The notes below the pieces were generated by a model. The model saw nothing but the letters and a program-made list of their open reading frames with translations, was not told where the DNA came from and searched no databases. From assembly GCF_017355525.1 (NCBI RefSeq), contig NZ_CP067395.1:3627001-3691000 (forward strand): 64,000 nt of DNA. The letters are read 5' to 3'. Shown in pieces: positions 18,708 through 29,880 of this stretch. A program made the position numbers and the translations under genes. The number at the start of each line of letters is the position of its first letter. The stretch's first letter is position 1. The stretch comes from Lysobacter enzymogenes. Lineage in GTDB: Bacteria; Pseudomonadota; Gammaproteobacteria; Xanthomonadales; Xanthomonadaceae.

Positions 18708-18780
18708 TCGCGGTCGCGGCTCGCGCCGCTCCTACAGTCGGGATCGCGCCCCTGTAGGAGCGGCGCAAGCCGCGACCGCG
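18708..18780 (+). repeat. Inverted pair of family 1 REP repeats between convergent genes
   Basis: A minus-orientation copy (18708-18737) and a plus-orientation copy (18751-18780) form a long imperfect hairpin between the convergent CoA-transferase and phospholipase-D-like genes. It could end transcription or protect 3' ends, although no T-run is present. Confidence 0.85.
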
Positions 18781-18803: not shown

Positions 18804-19499
18804 TCAACGCCCGAACTTGTCCCACAGCATCTCGAAGTGCCCCGAGAAGCTGCGCACCAGATTGGCGTCGTCGGTCACCACCAGATTCTCCTCGTTGCTG
18901 GTGGTCGCGCTGCGCGTCCAGTTGAAGCTGCCGTTCGCCAACACCCGCCCGTCGAACAGCGCGAACTTGTGGTGCATGTGGAACGGACTGTCGTCGATCC
19001 GCAGCGGTACGCCGAGTTCGATCAGCCGCGCCACGTCGCTGCCTTCGTCGTATTGCTTGTCGTTGTCGCTGATGACCCGCACCTCGAGCCCGCGCTTATG
19101 GCAAGCGAGAATCTCCTCGCTGAGCCGGTCGTCCGAGATCGTGTAGACACAGACCTCGACCCGACGCTTGGCCGACCGGCACAGCTCGCGCAACTTGCGC
19201 AGGCAGGCGTCGCCGGGCGCGAAGAACGCGCTCGACACCAGCGCCGGCGGCTCGGCGACCGCGTCCAGGGTCTTGACCACCTGCTCCAGCCAGCGCAGCG
19301 AATCCAGGGTCTGCGGCGTTTGCGACGGCTGCGCCAGCATCAGCTCGCGGGCCATGTCGAAGGCGCGGTTGCGCAGATAGCGCACCCGGTCGGCCGGCAG
19401 CTTCGCGCCGAGTTCGCGCAGTTCGAATTTCTCCTGCGCGTCCAAGTTCAGGTCGGCCACGCTTTCGCGCAGGGTGCGGTCGAGTTCGGCGAAATCCAT
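18804..19499 (-). CDS. Phospholipase-D-like protein, last gene of the PspA operon
   Basis: 231 residues with one HKD motif, His176-x-Lys178-(x)4-Asp183, followed by NGSFNWTRSA, the classic pattern of PLD-superfamily nucleases and phosphodiesterases that work as dimers. Residues 1-85 are an alpha-helical N-terminal region. No signal peptide or membrane segment is seen, so it is probably cytoplasmic. It starts 10 bp after the giant ATPase stop; the ATG at 19499 is preceded by a GTG at 19502 that could also be used. The operon context with PspA, flotillin and NfeD-like proteins points to work at the membrane, on phospholipid or nucleic acid. Which of the two cannot be decided from sequence. Confidence 0.85.
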   Translation of the reverse strand: MDFAELDRTLRESVADLNLDAQEKFELRELGAKLPADRVRYLRNRAFDMARELMLAQPSQTPQTLDSLRWLEQVVKTLDAVAEPPALVSSAFFAPGDACLRKLRELCRSAKRRVEVCVYTISDDRLSEEILACHKRGLEVRVISDNDKQYDEGSDVARLIELGVPLRIDDSPFHMHHKFALFDGRVLANGSFNWTRSATTSNEENLVVTDDANLVRSFSGHFEMLWDKFGR

Positions 19500-19509
19500 C
19501 ACGGCGGCC

Positions 19510-22500
19510 TCAGCGCTGGACCCGGCCGTTGAGCCGGTCGGCGAATTCGTTGAGCGCGCGTTGCAGTTCGCGCTGCTGTTCGGTCATCTCGGCGCGGGTC
19601 GGCGCATCCTCGATCCCGCGCTCGCCGAGTTGCTTGAACAGCTCGATCATCGCCGCGTTGACCCGTTCCTGGCGTTCGTCGTTGCCCTGCAAGCGCTCGA
19701 CCAGCGGCACGAACGCCTGCTGCAGCTGCGGGCCGAGCCCGCCGAGCGCGGCGGCCAGGGCCGCGCCGGCGTCGGCCGGCGGCGCGGCGTCGGGTTCGCT
19801 GCTTGCGGCGGCGATGCGTTCCAGCGCCGCCAGCAGTTGCGGCCACGGCGCTGCTTCGGCCGGTTTGGCTTGCGCCACCTGCGCCGCGCTCGCGCGGCCG
19901 GTGGCCGCATCGAGCGCGCGCACGCTCTCGACCAGATCGTTGAGCTGCGCCACCACCCGCCCGCCGACGTCCGACTCGCCCGCGCCCATCGCCTTGTTGC
20001 GCAGGAAATCGCGCTTGATCTGGGCCCAGCGCGCGGCCTGCTCCTCGCTGTGGATGCCGCGCAGCTCGCCGAGCTTGAGCAGGTTCTCCTCGGCGCCGGA
20101 GGTCAGCAGCTGCGCCTCGCCGAGATAGTGATCGTCGATCAGCTGCTGCAACTCGGCCGCGTTCATGACCGGCGAAATCTTCTCCGCCAGCTTGTTCATG
20201 TTGCGGTAGCTGCCTTGCAGCTTGAACGGCGGCTCGGTGCGATAGGTTTCGGCCTGGGCCGCGCTGGCGATGTACTGCTGGTTGACCCGGTAGACCACGT
20301 CGCGCACCTGCACCAGCCGTTCCAGGGTCGCGACGATCTCGTTGATCTCCGCGCCGCTGTAGGCGTGCTTGAGTTCGTTGGCCGAGAACGCCTTGCCCTG
20401 GGCCTTGTCGATCAGCTTGTACAGATCGCCCATCTCGCGCGTGGCCAGCGGCGCCAGCACCGGGTTCGAGGTCAGGCTGTTCTCGATATAGCTCAACAGG
20501 AACGCGTGCTCCATGCCGCCGAGCACGTCGCCGAGGTTGTAGATGTCGGCGCGGTTGGCGAGCATGTCCGGAATCTTGAACACCTCGCCGGACTCGGTGT
20601 ACGGGTTGCCGGCCATGACCACGCAGAACTTCTTGCCGCGCATGTCGTAGGTGCGCGTGCGCCCCTTCCACACGCCCTCGATGCGGCGGGTGCCGTCGCA
20701 CAGCGAGATGAACTTCTGCAGGAACTCGGGATGGGTGTGCTGGATGTCGTCGACGTACAGCATTACGTTGTTGCCCATCTCCAGCGCCAGATTGAGCTTT
20801 TCGAGCTCCTGGCGCGAGGTCGCGTCCGGCGCCTGGGCCGGATCGAGCGAACGCACCTCGTGGCCGAGCGCGGGGCCGTTGATCTTCATGAAGATCAGGC
20901 CGAGCCGGTGCGCCACGTATTCCATCAGCGTGGTTTTGCCGTAGCCCGGCGGCGAGATCATCATCAGCAGGCCCATCAGGTCCGAGCGCTTGCTCTCGCC
21001 GACCGTGCCCATCTGCTTGGCGAGATTGTCGCCGATGACGCCGAGGTAGACGTCGTTGATGAGCTTGTTGCGCACGAACGAGCTCAGCGGCCGCGGCTTG
21101 AACTCGTCCAGGCGCAGCGCCGCGCGTTCGCGCGCGACGATGCCCTGGCGCAGCGCCTGATAGGTCTGGAAGCCCGGCACGAAGCGTTCGCGATGGTGGC
21201 GCAGCCGCGCCGACCAGTCGTCCACGGCGATGCGCATGCGGCCCTCGCGGATGCGCGGGTGCTCGCCGAGCAGGCCTTGCAGGTCGGCGCCGAGTTCGGT
21301 TTCGCTGGTGGTCTTGGCGAAGCCGTCGTCGAGCAGCAGCAGCGCCGCGGCTTCGGCCGCGTACGCCGCCTGCGCGGCGAGCTCCGGCGTGCGCGCCAGC
21401 GCGTCGACCCAGTTCGTCGCCAGCGCCCAGCGCGCGGCCGGGCGTTCGCGCAGCGATTCGAGCGTCGCGGCGAAACCGTCCCACATCCGCGCCGCGCCGA
21501 GTTTTTCGCGCAAGGCCGCAAGCAGCTGCGCGGCGTAGCGGCTGAACACGAACCGCGGCTGCGGCGCCGACAGCTCCAGCACCAGGTATTCCGCCGCGCG
21601 CGGGGTCAGCGCCGGATCGACCGGCATCGTCTGTGCCTGCGCCCACGCCGCCATCGCCGCGGCGACTTCGCCGCGCAGCGCGGCGAGGCCGTCGCCGCTG
21701 CCGAACAGGCGCTGGATGTCGGCCGCGGTGCGCGCGCGCTCCGGCCAGCCGGCGGCATCGCCGTGCCCGCCTTGCAACGACCAGAAGTACGCCGCCCACG
21801 CCCGCGCCGCCGGTTCGAAGCTCAGGCTGCCGGCGCTGTCGCGCAGCGGCAGCAGCGCTTGCAGGATCAGCGCGGCGTCGTGGTCGTGGATGCCTTTCTC
21901 GTAGCCCTCGCGGTAGCGCGGCGCGGCGAAGTCGCGCAATGTGCGCGCCAGCGCCTCGGGCTGGGCGAGCTGCGAACGCAGCAGGTCCATGCTCAGGTTC
22001 TCGCGTCCGGCTTCGGCGGCCTCGATCGCCAGCCCGGCCAGGTACTCGCCGCGATACAGCTGCGGCGATTCGGAGTCCATCGACACGCCCCAGTAGTCGC
22101 GCGCCGCGTTCAGGCCGGCATCGTCGATCGGCTCGAAGAAATCGGTGCCGGTCAGATGCAGGTTCAGCGCGTCGCCGCGCGGCATCAGGGTCAGGTCGAG
22201 TTCCTGGGTGTTGACGCTGAAGCGGTGGCGCGGGCCGAGCTTGATGACGCCGCCGCCGTCCTCGAACAGTTCGCTGCGGTCGCGCAGCGCGCGCACCGCC
22301 TGATCGCGCGCGCCCTTGAGCCGCGCCTCGACGTCGTCGGCCTTGACGTTGTCCTTGAGCGCGCGCAGGCGCTCGGCCAGCTCGCGCAGCTTGAGGATCA
22401 ACGCGTCGCCGGCGAAGAACGCGTTGAGCTCGTCGTTGTCGGCGAAGCGCGCGGTGCGCCGGCCCAGGCCTTCGAGGATGCGCACGGCCGCGTCCATGAC

Positions 22501-24864
22501 CGCCTGCGCCTTGCGCTGGCGTTCGTCCAGCAGGGTCTGCTTGTGCGCCTCGAAGGTTTCCAGCAACTCCTCGCGCTTGGCCAGGATGTCGCCGAGGAAG
22601 GCCTCGTGCTCGCCGAACTGGCTTTCCAGTTCCTCCAGCTGCACCAGCAGGCGCGAGAGTTGCTCGTCGGCCTTTTCCGGGTCCTGCGCCAACGCCAGCG
22701 CGCTGGCGATGCTCTGGCCGAACAGGGTGAACTGGGCGCCGAACTGGGCCACCGATTCGGCCGATCCCAATTGCTTGCGGCGCTGGTCGGCGCGCGCCTT
22801 GGCCTGATTGAGCTTGGCGTAGATCTCCGAAATCGACTCGACCACACGGGTGCGCTGGGTCGCGTCGTCGACCTTCAGCGTCGCCATCAGCCCCGACAGC
22901 ATGTCCAGGTCGCCGGACATCGCCTGCATCCGGCTCAGCGGCTCGCTCAACTGGGTCACCGTGGACGCGGCCTGCGCCTGCGCGTCCAGCGTCTTGAGCG
23001 CCTCGCCGAGCGGCGCCAGCGCCTTGTCGCCGGCCAGGAACGCGCCGGTCGCCGCGCCGATGCGCTCGTGCGCGGCGATCAGCGCCTGCTCCATCGCATC
23101 GATCTTCGCCACATCGATGTAGCGGTACTCGCGAATGGTCAGCAGGTGCCCGCGCTGCGCGGTCAGTCCGTTCAACGCATCGACGAACGGCTGCACTTCT
23201 TCCCAGTTCTCGGGCTGCAGGCTGTCGAGCAGTTCCTTCTGCCGGCTCTGCGCCTCGCCCATCGCGCGCTCGGACTGGCTGCGGATGCCTTCGACTTTCT
23301 CGTACTCGTCGAGCACCGACTCGGCGGTCGCGGCGATTTCGCGCAGCAACGGCGCGACGTCGCCGCAGTGCGGGTCGCTGAGCCAATGGTGGGCGTCGAA
23401 CAGCCGCCGGGTGTTCTGCGCGAGCAGGCCGTAGCGCTGCGCCGAGACTTCGGTCGCCTCGATCTCGCGGCTCAGGCTGATCAGCTCGGACATGCCGCGC
23501 ACCAACTCGGCGTTGCCGATCTTGCCCATGAAGCTGTTGCCGGCCGGCTGCCGCGCCGCGTATTCCTCGCTGGCGTACGGTGTCTGCCACACCTGCATTG
23601 GGTGCACGCGGGTCGGCTCGTCGCTTTCGGTGGCGAAGATCACCATGCGCCCGTCTTCCAGGCGCGCGTAGCCGTGGCCGAAGATCGGCGTCTGCAGGCG
23701 CCGTTCGATCAGGTTGTAGGTGAACATCGCGGTGCGGCCCTGCTCGGGCTCGTAGAACAGGTACATCACGTCTTCGCCGTTGGGCGAGCGGATGTTGCGC
23801 TTGTAGCGCATCCCGTCCATCGACTGGTCGAAGCGCTTGTGCTCGCCGTTCTGCAGGTAGTAGCCGCCGGGGAAGATGATGCCGTGGTCTTCCGGCAGCT
23901 GGATGCAGGCCAGCCCGATCTCGTCCAGCCGCACCACCTTGCGGGTGAGGGTGTTGAACACCAGGTAGCGCCACTGCTCCTCGCGGTACGGCAGGATCTT
24001 CAGCAGGATCAGGCTGCCGACGCGGGCGTAGTCGACCTGGGCGTCGTCGAGCGACTGGGTCTTGTCCTGGACCGGCTCGCGGTAGATGCCCTGGCCGTCC
24101 TGGGTGTTGTTCTCGATCTTGACCGTGAGGTCGCCGTTGACCGTCTCGACGAACACGCTGTCGAGGATGTTCAGATGCGGATGGCGGCCGTTGACGACGA
24201 GCTCGCGCCCGGCGCGGATCCACTCGAAGTCGTACGGCGCCGGCAGCGCGATGTCGCGCTCGCCGCGGTTGTCGATGTAGCGCACTTCGCCGTCGGGCGA
24301 GACCGACCAGCGGAACACGCGCAGGTCGGTGATGCGCTCGCCGATCTGGAACGCGGCCAGCAGCTTGCCGTCGCGCACGATCAGCTGGATCAGCCGGGTG
24401 TGCTTGTAGTAGGCGTAAAGCTCGCGGAAGTCGTGGGCGAAGCTGTCGATGCCGAGGAAGCTGCCCTTGAGCTCGACCGGAGTGACGTCGTAGCCCTCGG
24501 GCCCCTGCACCAGCTTGTACAGCGAGAACACGTCGGCGACGACGGTCTCTTTCTTGAGCCCCATGAACACGTTGTAGCCGAACACCAGGTAGTCGCCTAC
24601 CTGGACGATGTCGCGCGCGACGCAGTTGTTCTCGGTGCGGATGCGGAAGCGGCCGATCACCTCCATCTGGCTGCTGCCGAACTCGGCCAGGCGCTGCTGG
24701 TTGAGTGCGTCGGCCAGCGCGCGCAGCTTCTGGCCCTGTTCGGCCAGGCGCTTGCTCAGCACCTCGTAGGCGCCGCCCTGGGCGACGGCCTGATCGACTG
24801 CGCTGCTGTCGCCAGCAGTGGGAGCGCCCGCGGCCGCAGCCGCGGCGGGCTTGGTGTCCGCCAT
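19510..24864 (-). CDS. Giant AAA ATPase (DUF3686 type, annotated elsewhere as DNA repair ATPase)
   Basis: 1784 residues. The N-terminal roughly 480 residues are rich in short beta-strand repeats (DUF3686-like region). A long coiled-coil-rich middle (about 500-900) follows, then one AAA module with Walker A SPPGYGKTT near residue 1300 and Walker B VMLYVDDIQHTHPEF near 1365, then a helical C-terminus. No membrane segment or signal peptide is visible. AGGACGAAAC before the ATG at 24864 supports the start. The DNA-repair label used in databases has little behind it. Beside PspA, flotillin and a PLD-like protein, a remodelling ATPase for a membrane-bound assembly is more plausible. Its size suggests a ring or scaffold machine; this is inference. 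Confidence 0.88.
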   Translation of the reverse strand: MADTKPAAAAAAGAPTAGDSSAVDQAVAQGGAYEVLSKRLAEQGQKLRALADALNQQRLAEFGSSQMEVIGRFRIRTENNCVARDIVQVGDYLVFGYNVFMGLKKETVVADVFSLYKLVQGPEGYDVTPVELKGSFLGIDSFAHDFRELYAYYKHTRLIQLIVRDGKLLAAFQIGERITDLRVFRWSVSPDGEVRYIDNRGERDIALPAPYDFEWIRAGRELVVNGRHPHLNILDSVFVETVNGDLTVKIENNTQDGQGIYREPVQDKTQSLDDAQVDYARVGSLILLKILPYREEQWRYLVFNTLTRKVVRLDEIGLACIQLPEDHGIIFPGGYYLQNGEHKRFDQSMDGMRYKRNIRSPNGEDVMYLFYEPEQGRTAMFTYNLIERRLQTPIFGHGYARLEDGRMVIFATESDEPTRVHPMQVWQTPYASEEYAARQPAGNSFMGKIGNAELVRGMSELISLSREIEATEVSAQRYGLLAQNTRRLFDAHHWLSDPHCGDVAPLLREIAATAESVLDEYEKVEGIRSQSERAMGEAQSRQKELLDSLQPENWEEVQPFVDALNGLTAQRGHLLTIREYRYIDVAKIDAMEQALIAAHERIGAATGAFLAGDKALAPLGEALKTLDAQAQAASTVTQLSEPLSRMQAMSGDLDMLSGLMATLKVDDATQRTRVVESISEIYAKLNQAKARADQRRKQLGSAESVAQFGAQFTLFGQSIASALALAQDPEKADEQLSRLLVQLEELESQFGEHEAFLGDILAKREELLETFEAHKQTLLDERQRKAQAVMDAAVRILEGLGRRTARFADNDELNAFFAGDALILKLRELAERLRALKDNVKADDVEARLKGARDQAVRALRDRSELFEDGGGVIKLGPRHRFSVNTQELDLTLMPRGDALNLHLTGTDFFEPIDDAGLNAARDYWGVSMDSESPQLYRGEYLAGLAIEAAEAGRENLSMDLLRSQLAQPEALARTLRDFAAPRYREGYEKGIHDHDAALILQALLPLRDSAGSLSFEPAARAWAAYFWSLQGGHGDAAGWPERARTAADIQRLFGSGDGLAALRGEVAAAMAAWAQAQTMPVDPALTPRAAEYLVLELSAPQPRFVFSRYAAQLLAALREKLGAARMWDGFAATLESLRERPAARWALATNWVDALARTPELAAQAAYAAEAAALLLLDDGFAKTTSETELGADLQGLLGEHPRIREGRMRIAVDDWSARLRHHRERFVPGFQTYQALRQGIVARERAALRLDEFKPRPLSSFVRNKLINDVYLGVIGDNLAKQMGTVGESKRSDLMGLLMMISPPGYGKTTLMEYVAHRLGLIFMKINGPALGHEVRSLDPAQAPDATSRQELEKLNLALEMGNNVMLYVDDIQHTHPEFLQKFISLCDGTRRIEGVWKGRTRTYDMRGKKFCVVMAGNPYTESGEVFKIPDMLANRADIYNLGDVLGGMEHAFLLSYIENSLTSNPVLAPLATREMGDLYKLIDKAQGKAFSANELKHAYSGAEINEIVATLERLVQVRDVVYRVNQQYIASAAQAETYRTEPPFKLQGSYRNMNKLAEKISPVMNAAELQQLIDDHYLGEAQLLTSGAEENLLKLGELRGIHSEEQAARWAQIKRDFLRNKAMGAGESDVGGRVVAQLNDLVESVRALDAATGRASAAQVAQAKPAEAAPWPQLLAALERIAAASSEPDAAPPADAGAALAAALGGLGPQLQQAFVPLVERLQGNDERQERVNAAMIELFKQLGERGIEDAPTRAEMTEQQRELQRALNEFADRLNGRVQR

Positions 24865-24966
24865 GTTTCGTCCTGCCTTTCGGGCCGGCCGCGCGAGTCC
24901 GCGCCGCCGGCGTCACACCGACGCGCCGCCGTCAGCGGCGGCGCGTTCCCTGGCCTCGCGCCGCGC

Positions 24967-27012
24967 TCAGGAATCCAGCGTCGCGGCGCCGTCGGCGGCC
25001 TTGTCGCCGGGCTTGGGTTCGGCCTTGGCCAGGATGCGCTGCAGCACGTCCTGCACGATCGGGCTCTTGCCGGCCACGCCTTCGATCGCCTTGCCGACCG
25101 ACAGCGCCTTGGCGAAGGAATCGAAGAACGCGCCTTCGCCGCCGACGATGTCGATGTTGGCCTTGCTGAGCGCGGCCGACAGCACCTCGGACTGCTCCTT
25201 GGCGATCTCCTTGTTGGCCTCGATGCCGGCGATGGCCTGCTCGAAGTTCTTTTCCAGCTGCATGCGGAACTCCTCGTGCGCGCGCGCCTGATCGCTGAGC
25301 GAACCCAACGCGCCGAACTTCTCGCCCAGGCCCTCGGCTTCGGCCTTGAACTTCTGCAGCAGCACTTCGGCTTCCGACAGGCCCAGGGCCTGGGTCGCCT
25401 TGGCCTTGGCCGCGCCCAGCTGCTCCTCGCCGCGCGCCTGCGCGAACAGGTTTTCCTCCAGCACCTTGGCGTCGGACAGGCCCTGCTTCTGCTTGGCGTC
25501 GGCCTGCGCTTCGATCACGCGCGCCTGCGCCAGGCCCTTTTCCTGCTCGCCCTTGGCTTCCGCGCCGAGGGTCTCGGCGATCACGCGGGCCTTGGCCAGG
25601 CCTTCCTTCTCGGCCGCGGCCGCGGTGACTTCGCGCACCCGCGCATCGGCCAGGCCCGGCGCGGCGCGCTCGGCCTCGATGCCTTCGGCGAGCTTCTTCT
25701 TGGCCTCGGCGGTCTTGCCGGCGGCTTCGAACTCGGCCTGGGCCAGCGTGGTCATCTCCACCGCCTTGTGCTTGGACGCGGTCTCGTCGGCCTCGGCCTG
25801 CTTGACCTGGCGCACCAGTTCTTCCTCGGCCAGCGCCTGCGCGGCGAGCACCGCGACCTGCTTGGCGCGATCGGCCTCGGACACCTGGCGCACTTCCTTG
25901 ATGCGTTCCTCCTCCTGCGCCACGGTCTTCTCGACCGCGATGCGCTCGCGGATGACGTTGGCGATTTCCTTGCGCTGTTCTTCCAGCGCGCGCTCCTTCT
26001 CGATCCGGTTGAGCTCGACCTCGCGCTCGCGCGACACCACTTCCAGGTCCTTGGCGCGGGTGACCTTCTCGACCTCGATCACCACCGCGCGCTGGCGGTT
26101 CTGCTGCGCCACTTCGACTTCGCGCTGGCGGTTCTGCTCGCGGATGTCGATCTGTTCCTGCGCGGCGATGCGCGCCTGCTCGGCCTTGAGCCGCTCCTCC
26201 TCCTGGACCTTGGCGGTCTCGGCCTGCTCGCGCGCCTGGATGGTCTGGATCTCGCGCTTCTGCCGCGCCTCGGCGTCGGCCTGCTGGCGTTCCAGCGCCA
26301 GCATCGCCTCGCGGGTCTCGACGTTCTTCTTGGTGATCGCCAGCTGCTCGTTGCGCTCGAGCTCGTTGGTGATGACGTTCTGCGCCGCGGTCAGCTCGGT
26401 GATCTTGCGGATGCCTTCGGCGTCGAGGATGTTGCTCGGGTCCAGCGACGCCTTCGGGGTCTGTTCCAGATAATCGATGGCGACGTCTTCGAGCACGTAG
26501 CCGTTGAGGTCGTTGCCGATCACCTCGATGATGCGGTCGCGGAATTCCTGCCGGTTCTCGAACAGCTTGACGAACTCGATCTGCTTGCCGACCGTCTTCA
26601 GCGCTTCGGAGAACTTGGCGTTGAACAGCTCGTTGACCGCGGTGCGGTCGGAGGCGCGGTCCACGCCGATCGCCTTGGCGACCTTGAGCACGTCCTGCTG
26701 GGTCTCGTTGACGCGCAGGTAGAACGCCACGGTGATGTCCGCGCGCATGTTGTCGCGGCAGATCAGCCCGTCCTTGGCGCGGCGATCCACTTCCAGGGTG
26801 ATCAGGGAGATCTTCATGAACTCCTTCTTGTAGATCACCGGATACACCAGCGCGCCGGTGAAGTGCACCTTCGGCGTCGCGGACATGTCGTTGACGATCA
26901 GGGCCGTGCCTTGCGGCACCTTGATGTAGAAGGCCTTGAACATCAGCAGCATCACGAAAATCATCAGTACGACGACGACGATGGCGGCGCCGACGATCAT
27001 CAAGTTGTCCAT
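24967..27012 (-). CDS. Flotillin-family protein (YqiK-like)
   Basis: 681 residues. One N-terminal membrane anchor (about residues 4-28, MIVGAAIVVVVLMIFVMLLM) is followed by a band-7/SPFH domain (about 30-250). A very long Glu/Ala/Lys-rich coiled coil (about 260-600) with EAE-type repeats, typical of flotillins, completes it. Flotillins form membrane microdomain scaffolds. Two ATGs are possible: 27018 directly abuts AGGGAG and 27012 has a 6-base spacing, so the latter is chosen. Located 73 bp after the NfeD/YqiJ-like gene and before the giant ATPase; flotillin plus NfeD is a recurrent bacterial pair (E. coli yqiK/yqiJ). Confidence 0.92.
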   Translation of the reverse strand: MDNLMIVGAAIVVVVLMIFVMLLMFKAFYIKVPQGTALIVNDMSATPKVHFTGALVYPVIYKKEFMKISLITLEVDRRAKDGLICRDNMRADITVAFYLRVNETQQDVLKVAKAIGVDRASDRTAVNELFNAKFSEALKTVGKQIEFVKLFENRQEFRDRIIEVIGNDLNGYVLEDVAIDYLEQTPKASLDPSNILDAEGIRKITELTAAQNVITNELERNEQLAITKKNVETREAMLALERQQADAEARQKREIQTIQAREQAETAKVQEEERLKAEQARIAAQEQIDIREQNRQREVEVAQQNRQRAVVIEVEKVTRAKDLEVVSREREVELNRIEKERALEEQRKEIANVIRERIAVEKTVAQEEERIKEVRQVSEADRAKQVAVLAAQALAEEELVRQVKQAEADETASKHKAVEMTTLAQAEFEAAGKTAEAKKKLAEGIEAERAAPGLADARVREVTAAAAEKEGLAKARVIAETLGAEAKGEQEKGLAQARVIEAQADAKQKQGLSDAKVLEENLFAQARGEEQLGAAKAKATQALGLSEAEVLLQKFKAEAEGLGEKFGALGSLSDQARAHEEFRMQLEKNFEQAIAGIEANKEIAKEQSEVLSAALSKANIDIVGGEGAFFDSFAKALSVGKAIEGVAGKSPIVQDVLQRILAKAEPKPGDKAADGAATLDS

Positions 27013-27085
27013 TTGCATCTCCCTATGACACGACTGCTTGTCGCGGCCGAGAAGGCGGCGACGGTTCGATGGCGGGCGCCCGGGT

Positions 27086-27769
27086 TCAGGCGCCGCGGAA
27101 TTCGTCTTCGCTGACCGCGCGGTAGGCGTTCTGGTCTTCGAGGTATTCGATCAGCACGACCCGGTCGCCGCGCTTGAAGCGCTGCGGGTCCTCGTCGCGG
27201 ATCTGCAGGATCAGGCCGGCGCCGCCGTCTTCGACGCTGGCGGTGCCGGTGCCGCGGTTGACCGGGCTGCGCACGGTCGCGACCTGGCCGAGGATCGGCC
27301 GCGGCGGGCCCGGCTGCATCTTGCGCAGCAGCTGGCGCAGCGGCCGCAGCGCCAGCGCGGCGACCGGCAGCGACACGCAGAAGTTGACGAAGATGATCGC
27401 CGCGCCCGCGGCGATGCGCAGCGGCGTGCCCGGCACCAGCTTCATCAGGTAGACGTCGGCGTAGTAGGTCAGGATCCAGCCGACCAGCACGATCACGCTG
27501 ATGACCACGGTGATCGGAATGCCGCCCAGGCCCAGGCGCATCAGCGGATCGAAGATGCCGTGCTGCGGATGGTGCGCGCCGTCGGCGAGGGTGTGGTCGC
27601 CGAAGCCGTGCGCGCCGTGACCGTGGCCGTGGCCGCCGATCCAGCCGTCGATCATTTCGCCGCCGGCCAGACCCACCGCCGACAGCAGCCAGTAACCCAC
27701 GACCACGCCGAGCAGGACGGTGTAGAACGCCGTCGGCAACGTCAGGATCGTACTGAAGAAATCGCTCAT
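27086..27769 (-). CDS. NfeD/YqiJ-like membrane protein with OB-fold C-terminus
   Basis: 227 residues. It has membrane segments near residues 10-36, 85-108 and 115-142, a His/Gly-rich loop (GGHGHGHGAHGFGDH) between the first and second, and a C-terminal OB-fold-like beta domain from about residue 160 (GQVATVRSPVNRGTGTAS, DRVVLIEYL). The ATG at 27769 has AGGGAGA upstream; the longer open frame starts in low-complexity sequence and is rejected. Proteins of this kind partner flotillins and may stabilise or modulate them. The His-rich loop could bind metal, which is unusual for the family and is inference. Confidence 0.85.
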   Translation of the reverse strand: MSDFFSTILTLPTAFYTVLLGVVVGYWLLSAVGLAGGEMIDGWIGGHGHGHGAHGFGDHTLADGAHHPQHGIFDPLMRLGLGGIPITVVISVIVLVGWILTYYADVYLMKLVPGTPLRIAAGAAIIFVNFCVSLPVAALALRPLRQLLRKMQPGPPRPILGQVATVRSPVNRGTGTASVEDGGAGLILQIRDEDPQRFKRGDRVVLIEYLEDQNAYRAVSEDEFRGA

Positions 27770-27867
27770 CCCGTCTCCCTCCCCGCTTGCCGCGATGCCC
27801 GCGGCGCCTCCATGAAACCGGGCGGCCCCATGCCGACCGGCCAAACCGAACCGAATCGAACCGGGGC

Positions 27868-28572
27868 TCAGCCCGGCAATTTCTGCCGCAGGCGCGCCAG
27901 CACCGCTTCGGCGCCGGCCTCGTCGGGCATGATCCCCGCGTCGCGCAATTTCTTTTCCAGCGCGTCGCCGCCGTCGTGGCGCGCCAGCTCGGCCGCCGCT
28001 TCCATGCGCGCGCCGCGCTCGGCCTGCTTCTGCTTGATCCGCGCCAACGAATCCACCGCGGTCTGCAAGCGGTTCTGCGGCCCGGCGTAGCGCTGCGCGA
28101 CCGCAGCCTGGGCGCGCTGCATGCTTTCGGTCGCCTTGACCGTGTCGAGCTGCTGCTTGAGCCGGCGGATGTTGCCTTCGGCCATCGCCACCGCCTTGCG
28201 CAGCTCGGCGACGCTGGCGGCGAGCTGGCGCAGGTGCGCCTCGTCGTCGCCGCGCGCGGCTTCCAGCGCGGCGATCTTGTCGGCGACTTCGCGCGCCAGC
28301 GCGTCCTCGCCCGACTCCAGCGCCTTGATCGCATAGCCTTCGTATTCGGCGATCTTGTCCGCGCCCTCGTTCCAGGCGCGCTGCGCCAGGGTGTGGCGCG
28401 CGAGCAGGTGCGCCAGCGATTCGCGCGACTGGCGCAGCTCGATGTCGCAGTCGCGGATCTCCTGGTCGAGGATGCGCAGCGCCTGGCTGTCGACCCAGGC
28501 CTCGCCGAGCTCCTGCGCGCCGGCGCGCACCGAGGTCAGCAGCTTGCTCCAGATGCCGCCCTGCTTGGCCAT
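27868..28572 (-). CDS. PspA/IM30-family protein (YjfJ-like)
   Basis: 234 residues, almost entirely predicted alpha-helix, with the long hairpin coiled coil of PspA/Vipp1 proteins, which are bacterial ESCRT-III relatives that coat and repair membranes. The N-terminal amphipathic helix (MAKQGGIWSKLLTSVRAG) fits membrane binding. Its ATG shares one base with the stop of the DUF2170 gene (TGATG), so the two are translationally coupled. The usual PspBC/PspF partners are absent nearby; it sits instead in an operon with DUF2170, NfeD-like, flotillin, AAA and PLD-like genes, as in the yjfI/yjfJ type. Confidence 0.9.
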   Translation of the reverse strand: MAKQGGIWSKLLTSVRAGAQELGEAWVDSQALRILDQEIRDCDIELRQSRESLAHLLARHTLAQRAWNEGADKIAEYEGYAIKALESGEDALAREVADKIAALEAARGDDEAHLRQLAASVAELRKAVAMAEGNIRRLKQQLDTVKATESMQRAQAAVAQRYAGPQNRLQTAVDSLARIKQKQAERGARMEAAAELARHDGGDALEKKLRDAGIMPDEAGAEAVLARLRQKLPG

Positions 28573-29195
28573 CACGCCGCCTCCAGCAATTGCGTCTCGT
28601 AGGCCTCGCTGGCCTTGATGACGTTGTCGGCCAGGGTTTCGATTTCGTACAGCACGTTCGACAGCGACGACGACGCGCTGAGCGCGCCGAACATCATGTA
28701 CACCGCTTCGCCGTCGGCGAGGGTTTCGATGCCGATGGTCGACAACGGAAACACCTTGTGGGTGCGCAGCACTTCTTCGTTGAACGCGGCGGCGTCGCGC
28801 ACGTGCGCGACCGGCCACAGCAGCGCCTCGACCACGATCTGCTCGCCGACCACGGCCAGGAACAGCGGCAGGTCGCCGTATTCGGCCATGACCAGGTGCA
28901 GGCTCGGCTCGGCGCCGTCGATCAGTTCGATCTGCGAGTCGCCGTAGACGAATTCCTCGGTCTGCGAGAGGGCGTCGAACAGCCCCGTCGCGGTCCAGAC
29001 CTTGCCGTCGTTCATGTCCCTCTCCACCCGTCCCCGTCCCGTCGCCGCACCGCGCGGCTGGCGCATGCGCTTTTCCGCCGCCAGCAGCTCGTCGCCGAAC
29101 TCGGGCAGCACCCACAGTTCTTTCTTGACCAGCCCTTTCTCGCGCAGGCGTTCGCGGTGGCGGCGCTGGTAGTAGGCGGAGGATCTGCGTTCCAT
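28572..29195 (-). CDS. DUF2170 (YjfI-like) protein with N-terminal MazE/DUF3018-like basic segment
   Basis: 207 residues from 29195. Residues about 65-205 match the YjfI/DUF2170 pattern (TATGLFDALSQTEEF, GDLPLFLAVVGEQIVVEALLW, a C-terminal helix). Residues 1-60 are basic and resemble MazE-like/ribbon-helix-helix segments (YYQRRHRERLREKGLVKKEL), a possible DNA-binding module. A second ATG at 29015 has an excellent site (GGAGAGGGAC) and would give the DUF2170 domain alone (147 aa), so two products are possible. It is the first gene of the operon and lies directly downstream of a palindromic promoter, which suggests autoregulation. E. coli YjfI belongs to the same family; its biochemical role is not known to me. 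Confidence 0.75.
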   Translation of the reverse strand: MERRSSAYYQRRHRERLREKGLVKKELWVLPEFGDELLAAEKRMRQPRGAATGRGRVERDMNDGKVWTATGLFDALSQTEEFVYGDSQIELIDGAEPSLHLVMAEYGDLPLFLAVVGEQIVVEALLWPVAHVRDAAAFNEEVLRTHKVFPLSTIGIETLADGEAVYMMFGALSASSSLSNVLYEIETLADNVIKASEAYETQLLEAA

Positions 29196-29210
29196 GGAGA
29201 CGGACGTTAG

Positions 29211-29247
29211 AGCATTACATGTGACACTGACAAGCTGTCACATGTAA
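29211..29247 (-). promoter_or_regulatory. Promoter with embedded 12-bp perfect inverted repeat for the PspA operon
   Basis: TTACATGTGACA (29215-29226) and its exact complement (29236-29247) flank 9 bp. On the minus strand, GTGACA (29241-29236), 16 bp and TGTAAT (29219-29214) form a fair sigma-70 promoter inside the repeat. A protein bound to the repeat would cover both promoter elements, as a repressor does. Predicted transcripts start about 12 bp before the 29195 start codon, so that reading frame would have a very short leader. Confidence 0.75.
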
Positions 29248-29352
29248 GAGCCGACGAACGGCGGCAGACGGCGGCCGTTGGGGGCCGCCGGGCGTTGTCG
29301 ATCAAGGGCTTGCGGTACGCGGGTGGAAGGCTCTCGCCGGCATGGGCGAGGG

Positions 29353-29381
29353 CGCGGTCGCGGCTTGCGCCGCTCCTACAG
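29353..29381 (-). repeat. REP-like repeat, family 1
   Basis: Single minus-orientation copy in the gap between the PspA-operon promoter and the small protein gene. The remaining bases of this gap show no gene. Confidence 0.85.
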
Positions 29382-29391
29382 AGAGCTTGGG

Positions 29392-29637
29392 TCAGGCCGG
29401 GATGCCGTGTTGCTGGCGGGCCTGGGCGATGCGGGCCTGGACTTCGGGGGCGAGGGTGCCGAGTTCGGCCTGCTTGAAGATGTTGCCGAGCACGCGCTTC
29501 TCGTCGTCGTCGATGACGTCGTCGCGCAGGGCGAGGTCGAGCAGGTTCTGCAGTTCGGCGAGGTCGAGCGTGCCGTCGTTGGTGAATACCTGGATCGAGG
29601 CGAGCGCGATCACGAGGTGGCTCTTGGGCTGGGCCAT
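29392..29637 (-). CDS. Small acidic protein, possibly TerB- or EF-hand-like (81 aa)
   Basis: 81 residues; I do not recognise it firmly. Start at 29637 with GGAG upstream. The core TNDGTLDLAELQNLL and RDDVIDDDEKRVLGNIF is two acidic helix-loop-helix units that look like a degenerate EF-hand or a TerB-type helical repeat. No signal peptide. It lies just upstream of the PspA-operon promoter on the same strand but has its own gap. Coding is supported by frame-consistent codon use and the ribosome binding site. Confidence 0.6.
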   Translation of the reverse strand: MAQPKSHLVIALASIQVFTNDGTLDLAELQNLLDLALRDDVIDDDEKRVLGNIFKQAELGTLAPEVQARIAQARQQHGIPA

Positions 29638-29770
29638 GCGGCAACTCCGTTGCGGGTGATGAAGGTCCTGGTGCGGCGGCCGTCGCGGCCGGCGCGTGAT
29701 GGGTTCGACTATAGCAAGGTCGGTGCGGGGTTCTGCGGTCGGGGGCGCAGGGTTCGCCGTCAGCGAAGTG

Positions 29771-29844
29771 TCGCGGTCGCGGCTTGCGCCGCTCCTACAG
29801 TCGCAAACGAAACCCCTGCAGGAGCGGCGCAAGCCGCGACCGCG
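29771..29844 (+). repeat. Inverted pair of family 1 REP repeats
   Basis: Minus-orientation copy 29771-29800 and plus-orientation copy 29815-29844 form a long hairpin in the 319-bp gap between the small protein gene and the 3' end of oleA. Apart from the oleA terminator next to it, no gene is seen in this gap. Confidence 0.85.
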
Positions 29845-29880
29845 ACACCGCAACTACCGCGCAACCCGCCACGCCCGCGC

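Follow-up and report, generated by a model that had tools for sequence, protein, structure and literature searches.

In this study, we analyzed a 64,000-nucleotide stretch of the Lysobacter enzymogenes genome (assembly GCF_017355525.1, contig NZ_CP067395.1, positions 3,627,001 to 3,691,000; hereafter the window), in which six genes form a run on the minus strand from 29195 to 18804. By its sequence, this run is the Lysobacter bac operon (bacABCDEF), an envelope-stress module with a known gene set and not a new candidate system; it encodes a DUF2170 protein (BacA), PspA (BacB), a YqiJ/NfeD-like protein (BacC), a flotillin-like protein (BacD), an AAA ATPase carrying DUF3686 (BacE) and a phospholipase D (PLD)-like protein (BacF). 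The explanation that fits best overall, and that we regard as rather probable, is that BacA represses its own operon through two operators, O1 and O2, that PspA acts as the anti-repressor, and that the downstream genes are the effectors. While the gene set itself is known, the predicted autorepressor switch, consisting of an N-terminal segment of BacA and paired operators, looks new.

The BacA protein of the window passed the NCBIfam BacA equivalog cut-off (341.2 bits, cut-off 300). The closest named loci are from Lysobacter, with BacA identities of 88-95%, and of 64% for Lysobacter sp. M2-1 (L023), and the window BacD scored 1083-1094 bits against Pseudomonas BacD in loci L013-L019. In Pseudomonas aeruginosa, bacABCDEF corresponds to PA14_16140-16200 (PMC2587700, PMC10948618; here and below, published work is cited from the available part of each article), and its genes were connected by reverse transcription PCR into one operon (PMC10948618). 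The P. aeruginosa operon shares the six-gene layout, and the crystal structure 8q8o covers the DUF2170 half of its BacA; unlike it, the window has a TerB-like gene upstream of bacA. The same gene set was described by Ravi et al. in 2024 as CesT/Tir(DUF2170)-PspA with a band-7/flotillin protein, a beta-propeller/coiled-coil AAA protein and a YqiJ-like protein, joined by PLD in some Proteobacteria (PMC11237479, section 19). The available main text of that article mentions neither TerB, TelA or tellur- terms nor an operator, palindromes or autoregulation, and its single mention of a ribbon-helix-helix protein concerns a different type of operon, in which that protein has a gene of its own in last place. 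In the PMC literature searched, DUF2170 was mentioned in 3 papers, and we found no mention of DUF3686/PF12458 and no paper combining PspA, a repressor and an operator; subscription papers were outside this scope, so this is no proof of novelty. The four operator strings appeared there in 5 listed papers, with titles on other organisms.

Upstream of bacA, positions 29247-29215 read TTACATGTGA-N13-TCACATGTAA, a perfect inverted repeat. This exact pair, with 8-24 bp allowed between sites, occurs once in the 5.95-Mb genome and 0 times in the reversed control. An earlier note on this DNA had placed one regulated promoter before the run, which agrees with the genome-unique pair, but it did not note that the first gene probably encodes the operon's own repressor.

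We then examined whether the sites accompany a particular form of BacA. The collection held 137 DUF2170 genes, 6 of which had upstreams identical to another. It was drawn from 53 of the 55 other genomes with a DUF3686 match (G776 and G826, two genomes of the family with the match near a contig edge, were left out), from 24 named loci of the BacA scan, 5 of them on the same contigs as other loci, and from DUF2170 scans, of which one was covered completely (52/52 rows) and the others by 24 of 121 rows (4 loci given, 20 hand-picked to span types; G451 and G391 among the 121 were already in the sample). With the N-terminal segment called at 35 bits or more and a site defined as TYACATGTRA with at most 1 mismatch, both set after seeing the first table, a site was present within 150 bp upstream in 78/84 genes with the segment and in 0/53 without it. 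Two or more sites were found in 71/84 versus 0/53, and an exact site in 68/84 versus 0/53, while the reversed control gave 0/79 and shuffling a mean of 1.28/79. For segment-less genes the 150-bp region starts at the DUF2170 domain and can miss promoters behind other N-terminal extensions; therefore, the test was repeated with 400 bp for both groups. Exact sites again occurred in 68/84 versus 0/53 and paired sites in 66/84 versus 0/53, and one-mismatch sites in 78/84 versus 4/53, the latter near the reversed control of 2/53. Paired sites were mostly 23 bp (35 cases), 22 bp (15) or 24 bp (11) apart, with other spacings scattered. No operator site was found at 13 loci scored as carrying bacC, bacD and bacE only.

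Exact pairs were present in 15 of 24 other bac genomes and absent from 9. By coordinates, every one of them lies at bacA, save two in genome G1002. One of these (L157, G1002:C1:1893287-1893319) precedes a LemA gene (172 bits) by about 26 bp, which suggests that the repressor may have a second target in some genomes. The further pair (L158, G1002:C1:2136252-2136284) is beside small membrane-protein-like open reading frames (ORFs).

The position of the operators relative to promoter elements was compared in 48 distinct promoters that offered sufficient sequence and in which two sites were spaced by 22-24 bp. TTG lay between the operators in 42/48 (shuffled mean 15.0), and TTGnnn-N16-19-TAnnnT was found in 38/48 (shuffled mean 0.92), the other 10 being without TAnnnT. 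The corresponding window elements are TTGTCA-N18-TAACGT; a generic sigma-70 scan returned no promoter at the window operators, and the window -10 is weak. Because O2 lies in the -35/-10 spacer, a protein bound there would exclude polymerase.

The segment in question comprises about the first 48 residues of BacA, with the pattern [KR]SSAYYQR.HR.RLRE.GLVKKE.W.LPE. In an 18-sequence alignment, 16/48 positions of the segment were invariant, compared with 28/159 in the rest of BacA. Nine of the 18 BacA proteins matched the Pfam MazE-like family (PF11455) at E <= 1, and hhalign aligned the segment to MazE-like proteins with probability 86 and a score of 31.0, whereas 40 column shuffles reached 16.5 at best; the MazE side consisted of two sequences. 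The segment thus shares the N-terminal helix-strand signature of MazE-like antitoxins below the Pfam cut-off, and in BacA it is fused to DUF2170. The AlphaFold2 monomer model gave a helix at residues 6-19, a low-confidence stretch at 21-30 and a helix at 31-45, and we presume that such a segment may suit a ribbon-helix-helix-like strand that forms only in the dimer. The DUF2170 half has the fold of 8q8o, which is also the fold of type III secretion system (T3SS) chaperones and YbjN.

The structure 8q8o, the sole solved relative found by sequence, is a 146-residue chain aligned to window BacA residues 63-202. In the L131 genome, 99% identical to this chain over 140 residues, the bacA ORF starts with MERKSSAHYQ and is 206 residues long, of which 146 come after Met60. 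PA3732 was given as 16 kDa by Mace et al. (PMC2587700). The chain length, this mass and the longer L131 ORF together indicate that the published P. aeruginosa BacA, unlike window BacA, lacks the segment, though the L131 ORF encodes it. The P. aeruginosa gene therefore seems to have been annotated and crystallized from Met60, an internal start in the 206-residue ORF, so that the head was missed, and the region searched for the published RpoN site would be partly coding sequence. If true, our reading corrects the start site underlying both the crystal structure and the sigma-54 proposal.

Covariation between segment and operator was assessed on 79 distinct upstreams, with strand classes defined after looking. 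The KKE strand went with TYACATGTRA in 52/53, the KHE strand (4) with a GC-core site in 3 and a mixed one in 1, and the KKD strand (9) with a TTTCATG-type site in 7. Variant sites are carried by all six genes that have the segment but no standard site (L057, L058, L060, L068, L087 and L150). Operator variants thus appear to go with segment variants, a result that is partly post hoc. It is predicted that KHE-type BacA prefers TCACGCGTGA and KKE-type BacA prefers TCACATGTGA.

Several loci serve as natural experiments. The P. syringae-type locus L027 has both segment and site before a glutathionylspermidine-synthase cassette, and L143-L148 and L152-L153, with the same BacA type as L027, have sites. 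Segment and site are both missing from the window genome's own glutathionylspermidine-synthase cassette (L081) and from L137, which falls among segment-bearing relatives. In L025 the N-terminus is out of frame and the repeats are of the TCACGCGTGA type. A quick tree with long branches contained 6 segment changes and only 3 independent pairs with good support; across these, the site changed in the same direction in 2.9/3 on average and never in the opposite one, which is supportive, not significant.

Two further groups were seen alongside these loci. The cassette L081:7400-12973 (C1 about 4.022-4.028 Mb) holds a second DUF2170-PspA pair with an ion channel, DUF2491, DUF1190 and GSP_synth. A distant DUF2170 group, L082-L086, may represent another specificity class: its N-terminal segment differs and is weakly similar (VKxExWAP-like), and the palindromes upstream are of other kinds.

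On these grounds BacA is predicted, and likely, to repress its own operon. N-terminal segments of BacA dimers would bind O1 and O2 and block RNA polymerase, a step with good support, and the CesT/chaperone-like half of BacA would bind PspA, with moderate support. Membrane stress such as osmotic shock or phage would then make or displace free PspA, which would titrate BacA off the DNA, so that PspA would relieve the repression. Such a switch would invert the sign of the known arrangement in which PspA holds the activator PspF. In the classical pspF/pspABC system, which shares the PspA core, PspA sets expression through regulator binding (in E. coli, as told in PMC2587700); the window differs from it in a predicted repressor instead of an activator, in the lack of adjacent psp partner genes and in a sigma-70-like promoter. 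A repressor with mapped operators would bear directly on the way in which PspA-family membrane coats are turned on in the absence of PspF, PspB and PspC. More broadly, we lean only slightly toward DUF2170/BacA proteins being a family of membrane-stress repressors, with a MazE-like DNA-reading head and a T3SS-chaperone-like PspA sensor, that repress bac and glutathionylspermidine-synthase PspA cassettes via tandem TYACATGTRA-class operators, with PspA as inducer and the head missed through an internal start.

Published P. aeruginosa data bear on this switch. PspA (BacB) was increased under osmotic shock and not under heat shock (PMC2587700), and PA3728-PA3732 were up in every phage-infected sample (PMC12041424); the switch thus matters for studies of envelope stress and biofilms. 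In a bacA transposon mutant, biofilm, swarming and rhamnolipid were reduced and BacB-F rose 6.1-13.5 fold (PMC10948618), a rise in the absence of BacA that autorepression, if true, would explain. A strong BacA-BacB interaction is cited as unpublished (PMC10948618), and an AlphaFold2 interaction probability of 0.981 has been reported for the pair (PMC13092808).

A number of observations weigh against autorepression with PspA relief. In the bacA transposon mutant, read-out from the inserted element itself could raise BacB-F. Copper lowered BacB 1.53-fold and raised BacC 1.67-fold (PMC6444534), opposite shifts that one switch alone fails to account for. The MazE-like match scored 15.5, below the Pfam cut-off of 22, and the model confidence (predicted local distance difference test) was below 50 at residues 1-7, 21-30 and 46-63. 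The KRE strand (11) was split between 7 standard and 4 TTTCATG-type sites, 2 upstreams were unclassified, and the covariation is partly post hoc because the six variant sites were found only afterwards. Relatedness inflates the Fisher test, and 3 independent pairs are too few for significance. Binding of BacA to the operators is a prediction from sequence; PspA anti-repression and the effector steps are likewise predicted, the latter speculative and drawn from family knowledge.

Another transcription factor might bind the palindromes, with the BacA segment doing something else, such as contacting PspA or the membrane. The low-confidence model and the sub-threshold MazE-like similarity leave room for this; however, sites are present or absent in step with the segment, whatever the operon type, the operator variants go with the segment variants, and the exact pairs are almost confined to bacA promoters in 25 genomes, a distribution that differs from that of a global regulator's sites, so we consider this reading unlikely. 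It is very improbable that the palindromes are functionless and kept through relatedness of the sampled genomes. There are few independent contrasts, yet sites occur in loci named as Lysobacter, Pseudomonas and Comamonadaceae-type, in a Myxococcales metagenome-assembled genome (L024) and, within the same class, under three additional family codes (L071/L072, L073 and L076), with differing bases around them, and L137 lacks segment and sites alike among segment-bearing relatives.

A sigma-54 (RpoN) promoter has been proposed for the P. aeruginosa operon (PMC10948618, PMC2587700), which speaks against the sigma-70-type arrangement and, together with the chaperone and YbjN fold of BacA, would suit BacA as a chaperone or post-transcriptional partner only. 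In the stretch from 300 bp upstream to 100 bp downstream of the P. aeruginosa operator start, the sigma-54 consensus was matched on one strand with 3/10 mismatches at best, and one of the two best matches overlaps the bacA start codon; the TTGnnn/TAnnnT promoter, in contrast, is interleaved with the operators in 38/48, and we give the sigma-54 reading a small chance. Nor do we favor, though it is marginally less improbable, the idea that BacE and BacF are a DNA-repair or anti-phage nuclease machine merely sharing the operon. The Pfam text for DUF3686 reads 'ATPase involved in DNA repair', BacF has weak matches to NucT (46 bits) and DrmC (31-32 bits), and the phage induction of PA3728-PA3732 (PMC12041424) would fit. 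Against this, BacE is tied to BacC-BacD in 51/53 loci, BacF fell far short of the NCBIfam equivalog cut-offs for DrmC (31.2 versus 133) and NucT (46.4 versus 297), and its nearest relatives in the PDB are mitochondrial cardiolipin hydrolases.

The survey covered 53 ATPase loci. DUF3686 is sparse, occurring in 7/274 genomes of the class, 8/398 of the phylum and 44/198 of the family, the window's own genome being counted in each. BacC and BacD stood beside the ATPase in 51/53 loci, BacA was present in 38/53 and BacF in 27/53, and 13 were scored as BacC-BacD-BacE only by phmmer at 1e-4; at one of these, L079, a profile found a divergent DUF2170 gene (35 bits) upstream of bacC, without segment or site. 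The gene order recurs across families, indicating that the arrangement is not due to chance. The earlier note had proposed a survey of co-occurrence as a check, and the association of the AAA gene with DNA-repair or restriction genes that it named as a refutation was not seen in the 53 loci, in which bac proteins alone were scored and other flanking genes were not annotated. The DNA-repair label of the ATPase that it left open is merely a Pfam description. At two loci, L011 14304-18747 (Allofranklinella) and L022 14290-18738 (Vandammella), bacD and bacE are separated by about 4.4 kb of additional genes, among them, by eye, a methyltransferase-like ORF.

Among the effectors, BacB matched PspA_IM30 (165.6 versus a cut-off of 33.9 bits) and is Vipp1-like by PDB match. 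Neither BacC nor BacD has a relevant Pfam match itself; BacC homologs match YqiJ_N in 2/12 (best 0.0021), and BacD homologs match Band_7 in 2/12 (best 3.4e-8) and Flot in 1/12 (0.0063). YqiJ-YqiK and flotillin-NfeD pairs are the counterpart of the BacC-BacD pair, which bac couples to PspA, AAA and PLD proteins. The AAA domains of BacE exceeded their cut-offs (AAA_5, 25.1 versus 22; AAA, 25.0 versus 21.2 bits), and SPPGYGKTT and LYVDDIQH, which we take to be Walker A and Walker B, are largely conserved in 68 sequences, as are AGNPYTESG and IPDMLANRAD. In BacF, HMHHK...GSFNWTRS is nearly invariant (43 sequences), HxKx4D and PLDc_2 are present, and the best PDB relative is mitochondrial cardiolipin hydrolase (1.7e-28), followed by the endonuclease 1byr (1.9e-13) and, much more distantly, bacterial NucT (4e-7). 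The mitochondrial cardiolipin hydrolase family also includes nucleases; being nearest to it, BacF is somewhat more likely to act on a phospholipid than on DNA. Speculatively, induced PspA and flotillin polymers would form a membrane-bound assembly remodelled by the BacE AAA engine, and the single-HKD BacF might act on a phospholipid such as cardiolipin.

Two additional components were linked to the operon. Homologs of the small TerB/EF-hand-like protein encoded upstream of bacA occur in 34/78 loci, duplicates included. In Lysobacter the gene is found ahead of bacA; in 9/78 loci (L010:14154-14441, L052, L054, L057, L058, L060, L068, L071 and L072) it sits between bacD and bacE, and its product is a candidate seventh bac component. 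Pfam TerB gave no match for the window protein, and the homolog in L071 scored 21.0 against a cut-off of 24.4. TelA (toxic anion resistance) was found between bacE and bacF in both Lysobacteraceae loci tested (L057, 232 bits; L064, 256 bits), where it stands with an uncharacterised protein of 230-260 amino acids (both within L057:1312-3200 and L064:14622-16389). The TerB-like and TelA genes link bac to stress genes of the tellurite/toxic-anion type.

The layout of the locus is given in the table below. The coordinates of the run agree with those of the earlier note, and so do its gaps of about 100 bp or less: bacA and bacB overlap by 1 bp (TGATG), and the remaining gaps are 98, 67, 102 and 7-10 bp. 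The start of bacC is an ATG chosen downstream of the longest-ORF start. The family labels of the earlier note held directly for DUF2170, PspA, AAA and PLD (the Pfam cut-offs were passed by DUF2170, PspA_IM30, DUF3686, DUF7902, AAA_5/AAA and PLDc_2), and for flotillin and NfeD/YqiJ through homologs only. The proposal of a membrane-repair candidate stood as a fair reading of a membrane-stress module, in line with Ravi et al. 2024 and the P. aeruginosa induction data, but the operon was already known.

Table. Features of the bac locus, in positions of the window
Feature	Position	Strand	Basis or remark
Operator O1, TTACATGTGA	29238..29247	-	Half of the genome-unique exact pair; conserved at about -51 in many segment-bearing relatives
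-35-like hexamer TTGTCA, between O1 and O2	29228..29233	-	Promoter-geometry comparison
Operator O2, TCACATGTAA, inside the -35/-10 spacer	29215..29224	-	Half of the genome-unique exact pair
-10-like hexamer TAACGT	29204..29209	-	Promoter-geometry comparison (window row)
bacA, DUF2170 protein, 207 aa	28572..29195	-	Pfam DUF2170 169.6 bits; NCBIfam BacA equivalog
BacA residues 1-48, MazE-like segment	29052-29195	-	hhalign probability 86
BacA residues 67-201, DUF2170/CesT-like domain	28593-28997	-	Fold of 8q8o
bacB, PspA/IM30, 234 aa	27868..28572	-	Pfam PspA_IM30 165.6 bits; PDB Vipp1/PspA
bacC, YqiJ/NfeD-like membrane protein, 227 aa	27086..27769	-	Homologs match YqiJ_N; position conserved
bacD, flotillin/Band-7-like, 683 aa	24967..27018	-	Homologs match Band_7 and Flot
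bacE, DUF3686 - DUF7902 - AAA ATPase, 1784 aa	19510..24864	-	DUF3686 685 bits
bacE subregions, DUF3686 and AAA core	23386-24726; about 20584-20967	-	Pfam
bacF, single-HKD PLD-superfamily protein, 231-232 aa	18804..19502 (start 19502 or 19499)	-	PLDc_2 97.9 bits
bacF HKD motif	18912-18980	-	HxKx4D motif
Small helical TerB/EF-hand-like protein, 80-81 aa, upstream of bacA	29392..29634	-	Label weak

Between 18500 and 29700, all 7 terminator-like sites detected are on the plus strand and none is on the minus strand, and no tRNA, Rfam or defence-system assignment stands for the locus. The six flanking proteins scanned were FGE-sulfatase-like, GH127, CoA-transferase III, beta-ketoacyl-ACP synthase III, DUF4156 and M16 peptidase; by these matches, the operon is flanked by metabolic or unknown genes. 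The usual psp genes, which the earlier note had called absent, are indeed missing beside the operon, with no pspB, pspC or divergent pspF among these six proteins (PspB and PspF were not searched genome-wide), but a second PspA and one PspC, the latter 2.3 Mb away, are encoded elsewhere in the genome. A repeated intergenic element near GTAGGAGCGGCGCAAGCCGCGACCGC, by eye like a repetitive extragenic palindrome (REP), lies on either side of the operon at about 18710-18780, 29340-29375 and 29770-29850.

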